A DNA stretch of 35,509 nucleotides from a virus, in the IMG/VR virus record IMGVR_UViG_3300030107_006175, positions 1-35,509 of that record. One strand, 5' to 3'. Shown piece after piece: positions 3,074 through 29,438 of this stretch. A program made the position numbers and the translations under genes. The notes beneath the pieces were generated by a model, which was not told the DNA's origin, made no database searches, and saw only the letters and a program-made list of their open reading frames with translations. How positions within the stretch are numbered: the stretch's first letter is position 1; each line of letters begins with the position of its first letter.

Positions 3074-3724
3074 GTGGCAAAGGGTATAGTACAAAGAATC
3101 ACGATGGATGATGTCAAGGAGAAACTTGGCAAACTGTCGTTGACGAATCAGTATCAGGTTAATTTCTCATCTTTGAATAAAACTATAACTGATTATCTTC
3201 AATCATTGGGAATTGATAATGCTAGAAATTTCTTATCTAGAAATCTGGGTATACTATGTTCTGATGCATCATTACCTGCGAGTGCATTTGCAACTGGTGA
3301 AGTAAAGGATAATTTTATGGGTATTCCTCAAGAATTTGCTCATACTAGATTATATACTGATATTGATTTTACCTTCTATGTTGATGAAGATTATACATCA
3401 TTGAATATCTTTGAGGGATGGATGGATTATATTTCTGATGGTGCAAGCATAGATCCAGAAACTAAGAATTTTTATAGAAGATTTAAATATCCTGATGATT
3501 ATAAAGTCAATACTATGACTATTACTAAGTTTGAAAAGAATATTAAAAGAACTTTGATGTATGAATTTAAGAATGCTTTTCCTAAATCAATTACATCTTT
3601 ACCTGTTACTTATGGAACAGCAGATCTTTTAAAAGTAACAGTTAACTTTAACTATGATAGATATGTTGTAACAAGAAGTGGTAGTACACAACCAGAATAT
3701 GGTATATTACCACTTACAAATTGA
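3074..3724 (+). CDS. Tail-tube family protein (gp54/gp19-like tube initiator)
   Basis: 216 aa with a GTG start preceded by AAGG at 3062-3065. The tube-fold signature is at residues ~58-120: GILCSDASLPASAF, a GEVKDNFMGIPQEFAHTRLY loop, then TDIDFTFYVDEDY and FEGWMDYIS. That pattern (Cys/acidic-Leu-Pro, then a beta strand of the T-x-D-F-T-F type, then F-x-x-W) is shared by gp19 and gp54. T4 gp19 is 163 aa and gp54 is 320 aa, so length does not decide between them. In T4, gene 54 follows gene 48 and works with gp48 to start tube assembly. Proximity to gp48 here favours gp54 over the main tube protein, which is normally beside the sheath gene. Confidence 0.8.
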   Translation: MAKGIVQRITMDDVKEKLGKLSLTNQYQVNFSSLNKTITDYLQSLGIDNARNFLSRNLGILCSDASLPASAFATGEVKDNFMGIPQEFAHTRLYTDIDFTFYVDEDYTSLNIFEGWMDYISDGASIDPETKNFYRRFKYPDDYKVNTMTITKFEKNIKRTLMYEFKNAFPKSITSLPVTYGTADLLKVTVNFNYDRYVVTRSGSTQPEYGILPLTN

Positions 3725-3740
3725 TAGTTAGAATTACCCC

Positions 3741-3748
3741 TATAAATA
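3741..3748 (+). promoter_or_regulatory. Late promoter TATAAATA for gp26
   Basis: Perfect match to the T4 late consensus TATAAATA, 24 nt before the gp26 ATG and in the only free intergenic stretch (3725-3772). Confidence 0.75.
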
Positions 3749-3772: not shown

Positions 3773-4492
3773 ATGCCATTACCAAAGATTAATACTCCAA
3801 CTTATGAGTTAACATTACCTTCTACAGGAAAAAAGATTAAATATCGTCCATTTCTTGTTAGAGAAGAAAAAATCCTCATTATGGCGTTGGAGACTGAAGA
3901 TACTGAACAGATAACAAATGCTGTTGTTGACATAATAAATGGATGTATTCTTACAAAAGGAGTTGATGTTAGTAAACTCGCTACTTTTGATATTGAATAC
4001 TTATTCTTAAATGTTCGTTCAAAGTCAGTTGGTGAAAGTGTTGAGGTTAATGTAATTTGTCCTGATGATAATAAAACATCAGTACAGGTTGAAATTGATA
4101 TTGATTCTATTAAAATTCAAAAAACTAAAGGACATAAAAATATTATTAAACTTGATGATCAATACTCTATGAAACTTAAGTATCCATCACTTAATGAATT
4201 TATAGATTCTAATTTTGAATCTAGTCAGGAAAGTGATGTAGATAAATCATTGAATATGATTACTTCATGTATTGAAATGATTTATGATAAAGAGGAGAGT
4301 TGGGATGCTTCTGATTCAACTAAGCAAGAGTTAGAAGAATTTATAGAACAATTAAATAGTAAACAATTTAAAACTATTGAAAAATTCTTTGAGACAATGC
4401 CTAAACTTTCTCATAAACTTAAGGTAACAAATCCAACCACTGAGGTGGAATCTGAAGTAGTGTTGGAGGGATTGGCAAGTTTTTTCACCTAA
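3773..4492 (+). CDS. 26: gp26-type baseplate hub / tail assembly chaperone
   Basis: 239 aa (T4 gp26: 208 aa). It begins MPLPKINTPTYELTLPSTGK and then KIKYRPFLVREEKILIMA, a hallmark of the T4 baseplate protein family that includes gp26. It continues with a VSKLATFDIEYLFLNVRSKS segment and a C2-like VNVICPDD sequence typical of this family, and the C-terminal half is acidic and helical. In T4 it is listed as a hub subunit. In this layout it looks like the lambda G-type tail chaperone that holds the tape measure. The last sense codons are AGT TTT TTC ACC before TAA, forming a -1 frameshift heptamer (4480-4486). Slipping would join it to the 4495-4674 ORF as a fusion of about 300 aa. Confidence 0.88.
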   Translation: MPLPKINTPTYELTLPSTGKKIKYRPFLVREEKILIMALETEDTEQITNAVVDIINGCILTKGVDVSKLATFDIEYLFLNVRSKSVGESVEVNVICPDDNKTSVQVEIDIDSIKIQKTKGHKNIIKLDDQYSMKLKYPSLNEFIDSNFESSQESDVDKSLNMITSCIEMIYDKEESWDASDSTKQELEEFIEQLNSKQFKTIEKFFETMPKLSHKLKVTNPTTEVESEVVLEGLASFFT

Positions 4493-4522
4493 GTATGGCT
4501 CATACCAATCTTGAGTCATACT
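4480..4522 (+). promoter_or_regulatory. Programmed -1 frameshift cassette (slippery site plus stem-loop)
   Basis: The heptamer T TTT TTC (4480-4486) is in the correct X XXY YYZ register with gp26. After a 5-nt spacer (4487-4491) comes an 11-bp stem: 4492-4502 AGTATGGCTCA pairs with 4512-4522 TGAGTCATACT, with one G-U wobble at 4498/4516 and a 9-nt loop (4503-4511). The zero-frame stop is at 4490-4492. In the -1 frame the reading is CAC CTA AGT ATG with no stop, entering the next ORF. The ATG of that ORF (4495-4497) lies inside the stem and has no good Shine-Dalgarno, so frameshifting is the more likely way to make its product. Both elements are read directly from the sequence; activity is inferred. 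Confidence 0.85.
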
Positions 4523-4674
4523 ATAAAGTAAATTTTGCCTTGGTTCAGCACCATAAATACTCTTTAACAGAGATTGAAAATATGATTCCTTGGGAAAGGG
4601 AAGTTTATGTTACTTTATTACAACAGTACATAGAAGAAGAAAATCTAAAACAAGAACAACGTGGCACTAATTAA
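4495..4674 (+). CDS. Frameshift extension ORF of gp26 (tail-chaperone T-like domain)
   Basis: 59 aa from ATG 4495 to TAA 4672-4674: starts MAHTNLESYYKVNFALVQHH, with a central YSLTEIENMIPWEREVY and a charged helical end. It lies in the -1 frame relative to gp26. Sequence like S-L-x-E-I-E-x-M-x-W-x-R resembles the short helical second domain of frameshift-made tail chaperones (GT type) rather than a stand-alone enzyme. T4 has gene 51 at this place, but T4 gp51 is far longer (249 aa), so I do not assign that name. Its 3' end overlaps the GTG start of the tape-measure-like gene at 4661. Most likely expressed as a C-terminal extension of gp26; free translation is possible but its start codon is in a hairpin. 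Confidence 0.75.
   Translation: MAHTNLESYYKVNFALVQHHKYSLTEIENMIPWEREVYVTLLQQYIEEENLKQEQRGTN
4552..4559 (+). promoter_or_regulatory. Possible internal late promoter CATAAATA
   Basis: A one-base variant of the T4 late motif (NATAAATA) inside the frameshift ORF, 101 nt upstream of the tape-measure-like gene. It lies farther from its gene than the other late motifs, so support is moderate. Confidence 0.35.
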
Positions 4675-5824
4675 TAGTCTAACGACTAAACCAAAATTAA
4701 ATATAAGTAATATCAAATCTCCTTTTGGTAGTGGTGCGACTATACCAAAAATTTCTGCTGGACCACTTGCAAAGGCATTAGGACAAGGGATATCTAAACC
4801 TAAAAAGAGTCCACTTAATATTAATACTTTCCAAATTAAGACAAATATACAAAATATAGATGAGAACATAGCTTTGCGAAAACGCATTGATATGTTATCT
4901 GGAGCCGTATTCAATATAAATCAACAGTTATCAGAAGTTAATGCAGTAATGCAAGATATTGGTGGTGCTTTAGCATTAGATTTTGCCAATAGAATTGCTA
5001 ATCAACAACAAGATAATAAAGCATTAAAGGCACAGGCAAGTGCTAATAAAAGATTGAGTGCTGAAAGTGCATTAGAAGGAAGTAAAAAAATAGGAAAAAG
5101 TATATCATCTGGATTGGGTAATGTAGCAAAAGCAGCAACAGGAGTTTCCTTTAGTAGTATGATGGATGCTGGTAAACTTCTTGCTTTAGGTATTGCACTT
5201 AATGCATTATGGCCGAAGATGGAAAAGATATTTGAGTGGACAATGAACAACCTTCATAAGATATTAATAGTTGGAGGTGCAATTGCTACACTTAATATAT
5301 TAGGTAGTTTGGGAATGCTTTGGAAACTAGTAAAACTTATGGGAAAGGGGAAATTTGCTCTTCTTCTAGCTTCCTTATGGATACAAGATCAATTGCTTAC
5401 TAAACCTGCGAGTAAGTATAGTGAGAATCTAAGAAAAGAAGCAGCTGCTGCTGGATTTACTAAAGATAAGTATGAGAATCCTGCAAACGCATATCTTCAA
5501 CATTTAAGAGATACTAATCAAACAGACAAATTAATGGATCTTTCAAGTATGAAAATGCATGATGGTGGACTTGTAACTGGTCCTACTCAAGAAGTTCCTG
5601 CAATACTTGAACGTGGAGAAGTAGTTATTCCTAAAGAATTGGTAGGAGCAGCACCTAAAGTTAATTTCATGGAAATGGATTTACCTATTATTAGGAAACA
5701 ACCCAGTGTAGGTAAAAAACAAGTTTCACTACCAAAAACTACTGAAGTTGCATATATTCCTTCGACTAATCCTTTGAATTCTTATATGATTACAACACCA
5801 GAATTACATGGAATTTGTGCTTAA
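4661..5824 (+). CDS. Tape-measure-like hub protein 1
   Basis: 387 aa with a GTG start (MALINSLTTKPKLN), overlapping the previous ORF by 14 nt. Residues 1-60 are Lys/Pro/Ile-rich. A helical, Ala/Gln-rich segment follows (~65-150: MQDIGGALALDFANRIANQQ). Hydrophobic helices run at ~168-185 and ~200-240 (ILIVGGAIATLNILGSLGML). Near the C-terminus MHDGGLVTGPTQEVPAI and LERGEVVIPKELVG resemble the G-G-x-V-T-G-P-T ... E-x-V-I-P end of many tape-measure proteins. Placed directly after a frameshifting chaperone, it is the best tape-measure candidate, although T4 gp29 (590 aa) is longer. The tape measure threads the tail tube and sets its length. Confidence 0.65.
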   Translation: MALINSLTTKPKLNISNIKSPFGSGATIPKISAGPLAKALGQGISKPKKSPLNINTFQIKTNIQNIDENIALRKRIDMLSGAVFNINQQLSEVNAVMQDIGGALALDFANRIANQQQDNKALKAQASANKRLSAESALEGSKKIGKSISSGLGNVAKAATGVSFSSMMDAGKLLALGIALNALWPKMEKIFEWTMNNLHKILIVGGAIATLNILGSLGMLWKLVKLMGKGKFALLLASLWIQDQLLTKPASKYSENLRKEAAAAGFTKDKYENPANAYLQHLRDTNQTDKLMDLSSMKMHDGGLVTGPTQEVPAILERGEVVIPKELVGAAPKVNFMEMDLPIIRKQPSVGKKQVSLPKTTEVAYIPSTNPLNSYMITTPELHGICA

Positions 5825-8986: not shown

Positions 8987-8994
8987 AATAAATA
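8987..8994 (+). promoter_or_regulatory. Late promoter AATAAATA for the 701-aa structural gene
   Basis: AATAAATA lies 19 nt upstream of the ATG at 9014, at the end of the OB-fold gene. It is one base off the T4 late consensus and similar in spacing to 20380 and 29431. Confidence 0.55.
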
Positions 8995-20380: not shown

Positions 20381-20387
20381 ATAAATA
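20380..20387 (+). promoter_or_regulatory. Late promoter GATAAATA for the collagen-like gene
   Basis: GATAAATA overlaps the last base of the upstream stop codon (TAG 20378-20380), 17 nt before ATG 20405. One base differs from the T4 late consensus. Confidence 0.5.
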
Positions 20388-28065: not shown

Positions 28066-29421
28066 ATGGCAATAAAACCTGCAGGAACACCACTTAAATG
28101 GTCTGAAATTCAAACAGAATTCGGACCTACTCCAACTTCAATGAGTAATATGAAGCAATACAGGGATATTGATCCTGTAGGTGGTATAACTGATTTATCT
28201 TTAGATGAGGAGTATTCTGTTGGAAGATTTCCCACTTCAGGTGAAGTTAAGTTCAGTGATTTTTATGGTAAAAGACTGAATATAATTGTTAATTATTATG
28301 ATACTCTTAGTACAGGTTGGAGCCTTGTTTATAATGCTTTTTCAGTTTCTCCAGTTTATAGAGTGAGACTTGTTGTTGCTACTGGAGTTTATACTTATAC
28401 TGCGAACAATGCTGATGTAGGAACTAGCACTGATACTACATTAGATTTGGGTAGTACGAGATATAGTGTTGGTGATGAGGTAACTGATACAGGTGATTCT
28501 AAAATATTTAAAATAAAAATAGAACAGCAAGGAAATTCTAGAGTTGATGCAAAATTAAAATATGATAGTGGTACAATAGGACAGGATTTTGTTGTTGTTG
28601 GTGGTTTAAGAGGTAAACCAGGAACCACAGCAGGATGTAAAGTTAGAATACATGTTAATCAAGAAATAGTATCTGCAAAAGGTAATCCTGAAATTTGTGC
28701 ATTAAAGACTGGTAATTGGTCTGGTGATACTATACTAGCTATTGATGTTGGTGCTAATGGAAAAATATATGGTGCTGGTGGAAATGGTGGAGGTGGTGCT
28801 GGTAATGGAGATTATCCTGGTGGAGATGGTGGAGATGGAACCAGTGGTATAGGAATTGAACATACTACTCCAGGATTTACTTATGTCAATATTATGAGTG
28901 GTGGATTAGTTCGTGCTGGTTATGGCGGCGGTGGAGGTGGAGGAGGTTCACTTTCCTCTGTTGCGTCAGGTGGTGTTGGGCTTGGTGGTATACGTGTTGG
29001 TGGACAACGACACCATTACCATGGTATCGGTGGCGGTGGCGGTGGCGGTGCTGGAAACCCTATTGGTGATGCTGGACCAGGTGGAAATAATACTTATGGA
29101 AAGCAGGCTGATAAAGATGGAGATGATGGAACTCCTGGAACTATAACTGATGGTGGTGTTGGAGGAGATGGTACTGATAGTGGACATGGTGTAGGTGGAA
29201 GAGGTGGAGATGGTGGAGATGTTGTTGCTACTGCACAAGCAGGTACAAATGCAAGTAGTGGTAATGAGAGAAATAGTGATGGTGGTGCTGGTGGTGCTGA
29301 TGGTGCAGCAATTAGAAAAGCTGCAAGTGTTAGTGTTGTAACTGTCAATACTACAGGAGCTTGGAATAATAATGTTATTGGAGATACAGTTGGCAATGCT
29401 GGTGCATCTGGAGTCCAATAA
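28066..29421 (+). CDS. Glycine-rich adhesin with phage FSDFYGK N-terminal domain
   Basis: 451 aa. Residues ~1-70 form a domain seen widely in phages (GTPLKWSEIQTEFGPTPTS ... EVKFSDFYGKRLN). Residues ~75-225 are beta-rich. From ~229 to the end it is strongly Gly/Asn/Asp-rich (GGNGGGGAGNGDYPGGDGG, GGGGGGGAG, GGRGGDGGDV), consistent with a polyglycine-II sandwich like S16 gp38 distal adhesins. It also carries a HHYHG histidine cluster. It starts three bases after the S74 fibre. This layout (long fibre, then adhesin tip) fits a receptor-binding tip. Host specificity is inferred. Confidence 0.75.
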   Translation: MAIKPAGTPLKWSEIQTEFGPTPTSMSNMKQYRDIDPVGGITDLSLDEEYSVGRFPTSGEVKFSDFYGKRLNIIVNYYDTLSTGWSLVYNAFSVSPVYRVRLVVATGVYTYTANNADVGTSTDTTLDLGSTRYSVGDEVTDTGDSKIFKIKIEQQGNSRVDAKLKYDSGTIGQDFVVVGGLRGKPGTTAGCKVRIHVNQEIVSAKGNPEICALKTGNWSGDTILAIDVGANGKIYGAGGNGGGGAGNGDYPGGDGGDGTSGIGIEHTTPGFTYVNIMSGGLVRAGYGGGGGGGGSLSSVASGGVGLGGIRVGGQRHHYHGIGGGGGGGAGNPIGDAGPGGNNTYGKQADKDGDDGTPGTITDGGVGGDGTDSGHGVGGRGGDGGDVVATAQAGTNASSGNERNSDGGAGGADGAAIRKAASVSVVTVNTTGAWNNNVIGDTVGNAGASGVQ

Positions 29422-29424
29422 ATA
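29417..29424 (+). promoter_or_regulatory. Secondary late motif AATAAATA
   Basis: AATAAATA overlaps the stop of the adhesin gene, 14 bp left of the stronger TATAAATA at 29431. It is weak on its own; a tandem start is possible. Confidence 0.25.
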
Positions 29425-29430
29425 TACGAC

Positions 29431-29438
29431 TATAAATA
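29431..29438 (+). promoter_or_regulatory. Late promoter TATAAATA for the 582-aa fibre gene
   Basis: Perfect TATAAATA, 19 nt before ATG 29458, in the short intergenic gap. Confidence 0.7.

Follow-up and report, generated by a model that had tools for sequence, protein, structure and literature searches.

A T4-like phage gene with a conserved T_TTT_TTC slippery site that very probably encodes both forms of a tail assembly (baseplate hub) chaperone

The closest described systems are the tail assembly chaperones of T4-like phages, which, judging from its title and from papers that cite it, were identified in the study of Vladimirov, Gautam, and Davidson (2022, Virology 566:9-15; doi 10.1016/j.virol.2021.11.003). 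Poly-T frameshift signals in the short-chaperone genes of these phages are credited to that study by two citing papers (PMC12846349, PMC10885494), and the latter, which describes PRFect, summarizes from it that some T4-like phages have one short and one fused longer gene and no frameshifting. As far as the citing papers describe them, these T4-like gp26 and gp51 are the same proteins as those of the locus analyzed here: The core phenomenon was by these accounts already reported in 2022 and our locus is a well-supported further example, so that an earlier note on this DNA, which knew of no such description, is superseded on this point. Because the central claims appear from these sources to be already published, the added value of our analysis lies in the anatomy of the cis-acting signals and its breadth; possibly new are a Shine-Dalgarno (SD)-like element, exchangeable lineage-specific hairpins, and an invariant CATAAATA inside gp51.

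The window, i.e., the whole stretch of DNA analyzed (35,509 nucleotides of a marine T4-like phage; IMG/VR record IMGVR_UViG_3300030107_006175), contains one gene which, on the sequence evidence presented below, very probably encodes both forms of the T4-like tail assembly (baseplate hub) chaperone via a -1 slip at T_TTT_TTC. The locus is composed as follows:

3074..3724, + strand: tail-tube-like gene directly upstream of gp26 (PF23849, E 1.1e-21; phrog_45 tail tube, E 3.5e-41)
3773..4492, + strand: gp26 (239 aa), the short form of the tail assembly (hub) chaperone, read in the zero frame (PF12322 T4_baseplate, E 2.1e-72; phrog_150 baseplate hub, E 7.8e-81)
4465..4471, + strand: GGAGGGA, putative internal SD-like stimulator (synonymous-site constraint)
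4480..4486, + strand: T_TTT_TTC slippery heptamer, in the gp26 register and kept in relatives
4480..4674, + strand: -1 frame, gp51 tail of the 300-aa fusion, with new residues from 4486 and stop at 4672-4674 (phrog_634)
4490..4492, + strand: TAA, zero-frame stop of gp26 (sequence)
4492..4502, + strand: 5' arm of the hairpin (11 bp, -14.7 kcal/mol, z -5.0)
4495..4497, + strand: ATG of the 59-aa ORF, within the stem, not conserved outside the clade
4512..4522, + strand: 3' arm of the hairpin (codons GAG TCA TAC invariant in the window's clade)
4552..4559, + strand: CATAAATA, late-promoter-like motif inside the gp51 frame (invariant in two cyanophage-like clades)
4661..5824, + strand: next gene, 387 aa, at the position expected for the tape measure (no Pfam or PHROG match)

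The elements of the signal proposed in the earlier note were all recovered in the sequence: With gp26 codons starting at 3773+3n, TTT falls at 4481, TTC at 4484, ACC at 4487, and TAA at 4490, the heptamer lies in the correct register, and the -1 frame is open through 4674. A spacer of 5 nt (4487-4491) separates the heptamer from the stem, which folding reproduced with 11 bp, one G-U pair, and a 9-nt loop. The ATG at 4495 indeed lacks a Shine-Dalgarno sequence at the usual distance; the nearest SD-like run, GGAGG at 4465-4469, ends 25 nt upstream and is thus too distant to serve the 59-aa ORF. Beyond F238 the -1 frame continues with H-L-S-M-A, and the slip product comprises 238 + 62 = 300 residues, that is, a gp26-gp51 fusion. 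In the proposed mechanism, most ribosomes would terminate at 4490 and release gp26 as the short form, while a minority would pause at T_TTT_TTC, with help from GGAGG, the SD-like element on its 5' side, and from the hairpin on its 3' side; both Phe-tRNAs would then re-pair one base back, and translation in the -1 frame would yield the fusion as the long form. On the model of lambda G/GT, the gp26 part would bind the tape measure and the gp51 tail would recruit a tail or hub partner. That slippage occurs, at what rate, and what each form binds we infer from the observed elements, their conservation, the homology, and the paralogy. T4 and its close relatives would make the same two proteins from paralogous genes, 26 for the short form and 51 for the full fusion.

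This last step can be followed in the proteins themselves. The hidden 59-aa ORF matches phrog_634, the family of T4 gp51 annotated as 'baseplate hub assembly catalyst' (E 2.7e-28). T4 genes 26 and 51 are separate and divergent neighbors, and the wording of the earlier note, which spoke of the T4 gp26 locus, does not hold for T4, which judging by this gene arrangement does not itself frameshift here. T4 gp51 (249 aa) consists of a full PF12322 domain (residues 1-201, E 3.9e-52) followed by a tail; T4 gp26 (208 aa) is the PF12322 domain alone. T4-type pairs of these genes were examined in seven phages. A hidden Markov model (HMM) built from the -1-frame tails only matched the C-termini of seven T4-type gp51 proteins (small set; i-E 4.6e-13 to 9.7e-5) and gave no significant match to any gp26; its alignments begin at position 2-3 of the model and at residue 192-201 of gp51, which corresponds to the slip point. 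By homology, T4 gp51 is a paralogue of gp26 to which the same tail is attached at the position of the slip. In an unrooted tree, in which the gp26 proteins of RB43 and Aeromonas 31 form long branches, all T4-type gp26 and gp51 sequences fall on one side of a 99/98 branch versus the frameshift and Ackermannviridae members, a topology that fits one duplication in the T4 lineage; this result agrees independently with Vladimirov et al. 2022 as cited by others. When gp51, gp26, and tails were combined in one alignment, the C-termini were misplaced, and this alignment was excluded from folding.

Since the hidden ORF corresponds to gp51 and T4 gp51 to gp26 plus the same tail, homology backs the assignment of gp26 and the fusion to the G and GT types made in the earlier note. 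Alternatively, the fusion is made, yet the role of gp26 and gp51 is confined to assembling the baseplate hub, and they do not chaperone the tape measure in the manner of G/GT. T4 reviews do list both proteins as hub assembly chaperones, the 2010 review calling gp51 essential and of unknown function (PMC3004832), and the gene after gp51 is not recognized as a tape measure. We nevertheless regard this alternative as unlikely: Vladimirov et al. 2022, going by title and citing papers, class the T4-like proteins as tail assembly chaperones, the short/long architecture is that of G/GT, and a tail tube gene lies upstream. Furthermore, the structure model of gp26 (pLDDT 88.9) has as its best-probability match among solved structures the HK97 tail assembly chaperone (gp13, 2OB9; probability 0.77, rmsd 2.8 over 62 columns), although with an E of 1.1 the fold argument is only suggestive. 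The gp51 model is of low quality over the tail (pLDDT <50 for residues 206-249) and gave no HK97-chaperone-type match in the PDB, and sequence searches of solved structures found nothing. As for the downstream gene, its description as tape-measure-like in the earlier note was not confirmed by family searches: Besides position, the identification leans on a GG-x-V-x-GP...GE-x-V-I-P motif, which we take to be characteristic, and that this gene is the tape measure is therefore unproven.

The G/GT-type reading presupposes a functional slip site, for which conservation is the strongest argument. Within the window, the heptamer alone is only mildly unusual, because 75 heptamers of the form X XXY YYZ occur in register among the 11,041 codons of the long ORFs, four being of the T6 type and two lying within 31 nt of a stop. 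Among relatives it is far beyond chance: TTTTTTC stands exactly 10 nt before the stop in 80/80 close relatives (IMG/VR, 68-97% identical), and TTTTTT[C/T/G] occurs at a distance of 7 to 31 nt from the stop, and in register, at 246 of the 250 gp26 loci with a readable gp26 stop, a set that combines close relatives with more distant loci. The carriers include Kyanoviridae-like phages and phages of Sinorhizobium (phiM7), Rhizobium (RHph_I34), Agrobacterium (OLIVR5), Pseudomonas (Astolliot), Aeromonas (ZPAH1), and Vibrio (nt-1). This conservation rules out a chance heptamer, and the agreement of independent contigs rules out a sequencing artefact. In 143 non-redundant loci the heptamer codons are NNT in 143, TTT in 143, and TTC in 135, compared with a background of 32% TTC among the Phe codons of these genes; as the phages are related, these counts are not independent events. 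The four exceptions among the 250 loci are two Ackermannviridae, vibriophage K475, and Stenotrophomonas phage IME-SM1. The last has five T in place of six (L085:2720-2735) and its annotated gp26 continues in the wrong frame, probably as a consequence of a sequencing indel; the Ackermannviridae and K475 lack the T6 heptamer, yet retain a gp51-like ORF in the -1 frame. In the Ackermannviridae Guerrero (L091, ~3739) and Ds16CZ (L092, ~3751) this ORF directly follows gp26, with A_ATT_TTC instead of the canonical heptamer; in Guerrero it has no start codon, and this phage may use a different slippery site. Near its start, gp26 also shows strong excess synonymous conservation, comparable to that at the slip site (alignment columns -317 to -305).

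Conservation of the -1 frame itself starts with the two Phe, as a comparison of 158 distinct tails shows. This bears on a further explanation, in which gp51 is a short gene of its own, ribosomes that terminate at 4490 re-initiate on the ATG at 4495 (translational coupling), and the heptamer is incidental. The ATG begins 5 nt downstream of the first base of the stop codon, close enough for such coupling, TAATG overlaps occur in Dickeya phage Ds16CZ and vibriophage K475, and many cyanophage GenBank records give gp51 its own ORF. However, the first ten tail codons include no ATG in half of all distinct relatives (87 of 175 distinct contexts), and in many contexts the first ATG is found at codon 20, 21, or 34, well within the conserved tail. 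Residues of the -1 frame upstream of the ATG are conserved, the heptamer codons are fixed at synonymous sites, and the T4 gp51 tail is fused to a gp26 domain, all of which makes re-initiation as the sole route very improbable. The phage of our window retains the ATG, and here some free gp51 could be made by re-initiation. The GenBank records of ACG-2014e, DSL-LC03, and ZPAH1 (L093, L094, L089) omit gp51, seemingly because no early ATG is present (none lies near the tail start in ACG-2014e and ZPAH1), and two of these records label the next gene endolysin or lysozyme C.

Frameshifting at the heptamer is further supported by constraint on the flanking elements. Upstream, GGAGG ends 10 nt before the heptamer and, from its codon usage, is held at synonymous sites: The Glu codon in GGAGGGA is GAG in 72/86 sequences versus a background of 28%, the highest value of 27 Glu columns, and pairing with the anti-SD reaches -6.42, compared with -4.84 when synonymous codons are shuffled (the lowest mean among 100 replicates being -5.11). 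Downstream, none of 200 shuffles was as stable as the hairpin, and the mean z in the window's clade is -4.3. As this clade was chosen by its 5'-arm pattern, only the 3' arm counts as evidence: Its codons GAG TCA TAC are invariant in 54/54 sequences, while the loop codons vary at the expected rate. In alignment A1, 97.7% of the stem cells are paired; a covariation test of this stem is uninformative because 8 of its 11 pairs never vary. In a second clade the hairpin position is taken by a fold of unrelated sequence (ACTCTTCCA/TGGAAGGGT), which shows weak covariation, with 24/500 shuffles scoring as high. In some relatives (L064, L076, L089, L144) the stem is missing or weak, for which reason we consider the hairpin an accessory and not a universal part of the signal; on the present alignments it is lineage-specific. 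Of the conservation across the junction that the earlier note expected in relatives, the heptamer and the open -1 frame are thus borne out while the stem is not universal; the note had held that loss of the stem with both ORFs kept would speak against frameshifting, and this combination does occur in some relatives, where the heptamer nevertheless stays. Transcriptional slippage on the T6 run, which would produce fusion-encoding mRNAs without a ribosomal shift, has next to nothing in its favor beyond the conserved core being a homopolymer run, for this run has only six T and is nearly always broken by C (TTC in 135/143), slippage-driven transcriptional systems prefer longer runs, and the codon register, SD-like element, and downstream hairpin suit ribosomal frameshifting. 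Taken with the synonymous-site constraint and the loss of the gp51 start codon in relatives, conservation strongly backs the -1 frameshift joining gp26 to the hidden ORF as originally proposed, and the site is real and, as far as sequence comparison can tell, almost certainly functional.

Within the gp51 frame, CATAAATA (4552-4559) matches the core of T4-type late promoters. It is unchanged in all loci of two cyanophage-like clades (91/91), although the His and Lys codons could vary, and is found in 19/52 of the other relatives; a possible function is to start late transcripts of the tape-measure-like gene. Other ATAAATA motifs lie just upstream of late genes including gp26 (3742-3748, 8988-8994, 20381-20387, and 29418-29438 on the + strand; 2223-2229 on the - strand). 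The AT-rich window contains 10 ATAAATA matches in total, fewer than the 22 expected by chance.

Taken further, we lean slightly toward a broader picture: The gp26/gp51 site would be a dnaX-like three-part cassette, consisting of an internal SD, a U6 heptamer, and an exchangeable lineage-specific hairpin, on which an invariant late-promoter motif in the -1 frame is superimposed in cyanophage-like phages, and the essential T4 gene 51 would have arisen by duplication into a hard-wired fusion, the T4 lineage thereby trading translational control of the ratio for two separately regulated genes. Independently of this picture, the locus suggests at the level of sequence why T4 cannot do without gene 51, as gp51 would be the long form of a chaperone whose short form is gp26, and it offers a natural comparison of two routes to a ratio of short and long protein, frameshifting and gene duplication. 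It also points to a large group of marine phages in which annotation either wrongly treats the gp51 frame as a gene of its own or omits it.

In comparison with known systems, the locus resembles lambda G/GT in that a short and a minor long form would come from one gene by -1 slippage near its 3' end. The heptamer of lambda G/GT is G GGA AAG and differs from the T_TTT_TTC found here. G/GT lies between the tail tube and the tape-measure region; at our locus a tail-tube-like gene lies upstream, and the downstream gene, at the position expected for a tape measure, has no family match. The TAC-N/TAC-NC pair of the Vandenendeviridae and Andersonviridae, described for phage Adele (PMC12846349), is likewise a myovirus chaperone gene with a conserved T-rich -1 site (GTTTTT) and an open -1 frame; it belongs to other phage families, and the account of it, in the part available to us, mentions neither a hairpin nor an SD-like element. 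The three-part signal of our locus has its counterpart outside phages. Escherichia coli dnaX combines an internal SD ~10 nt upstream, the slippery heptamer A AAA AAG, and a downstream hairpin ~5-6 nt away. GGAGG likewise precedes the heptamer by 10 nt at our locus, and the two differ in the heptamer and in the outcome: The shift in dnaX shortens the product, whereas the shift proposed here would extend it.
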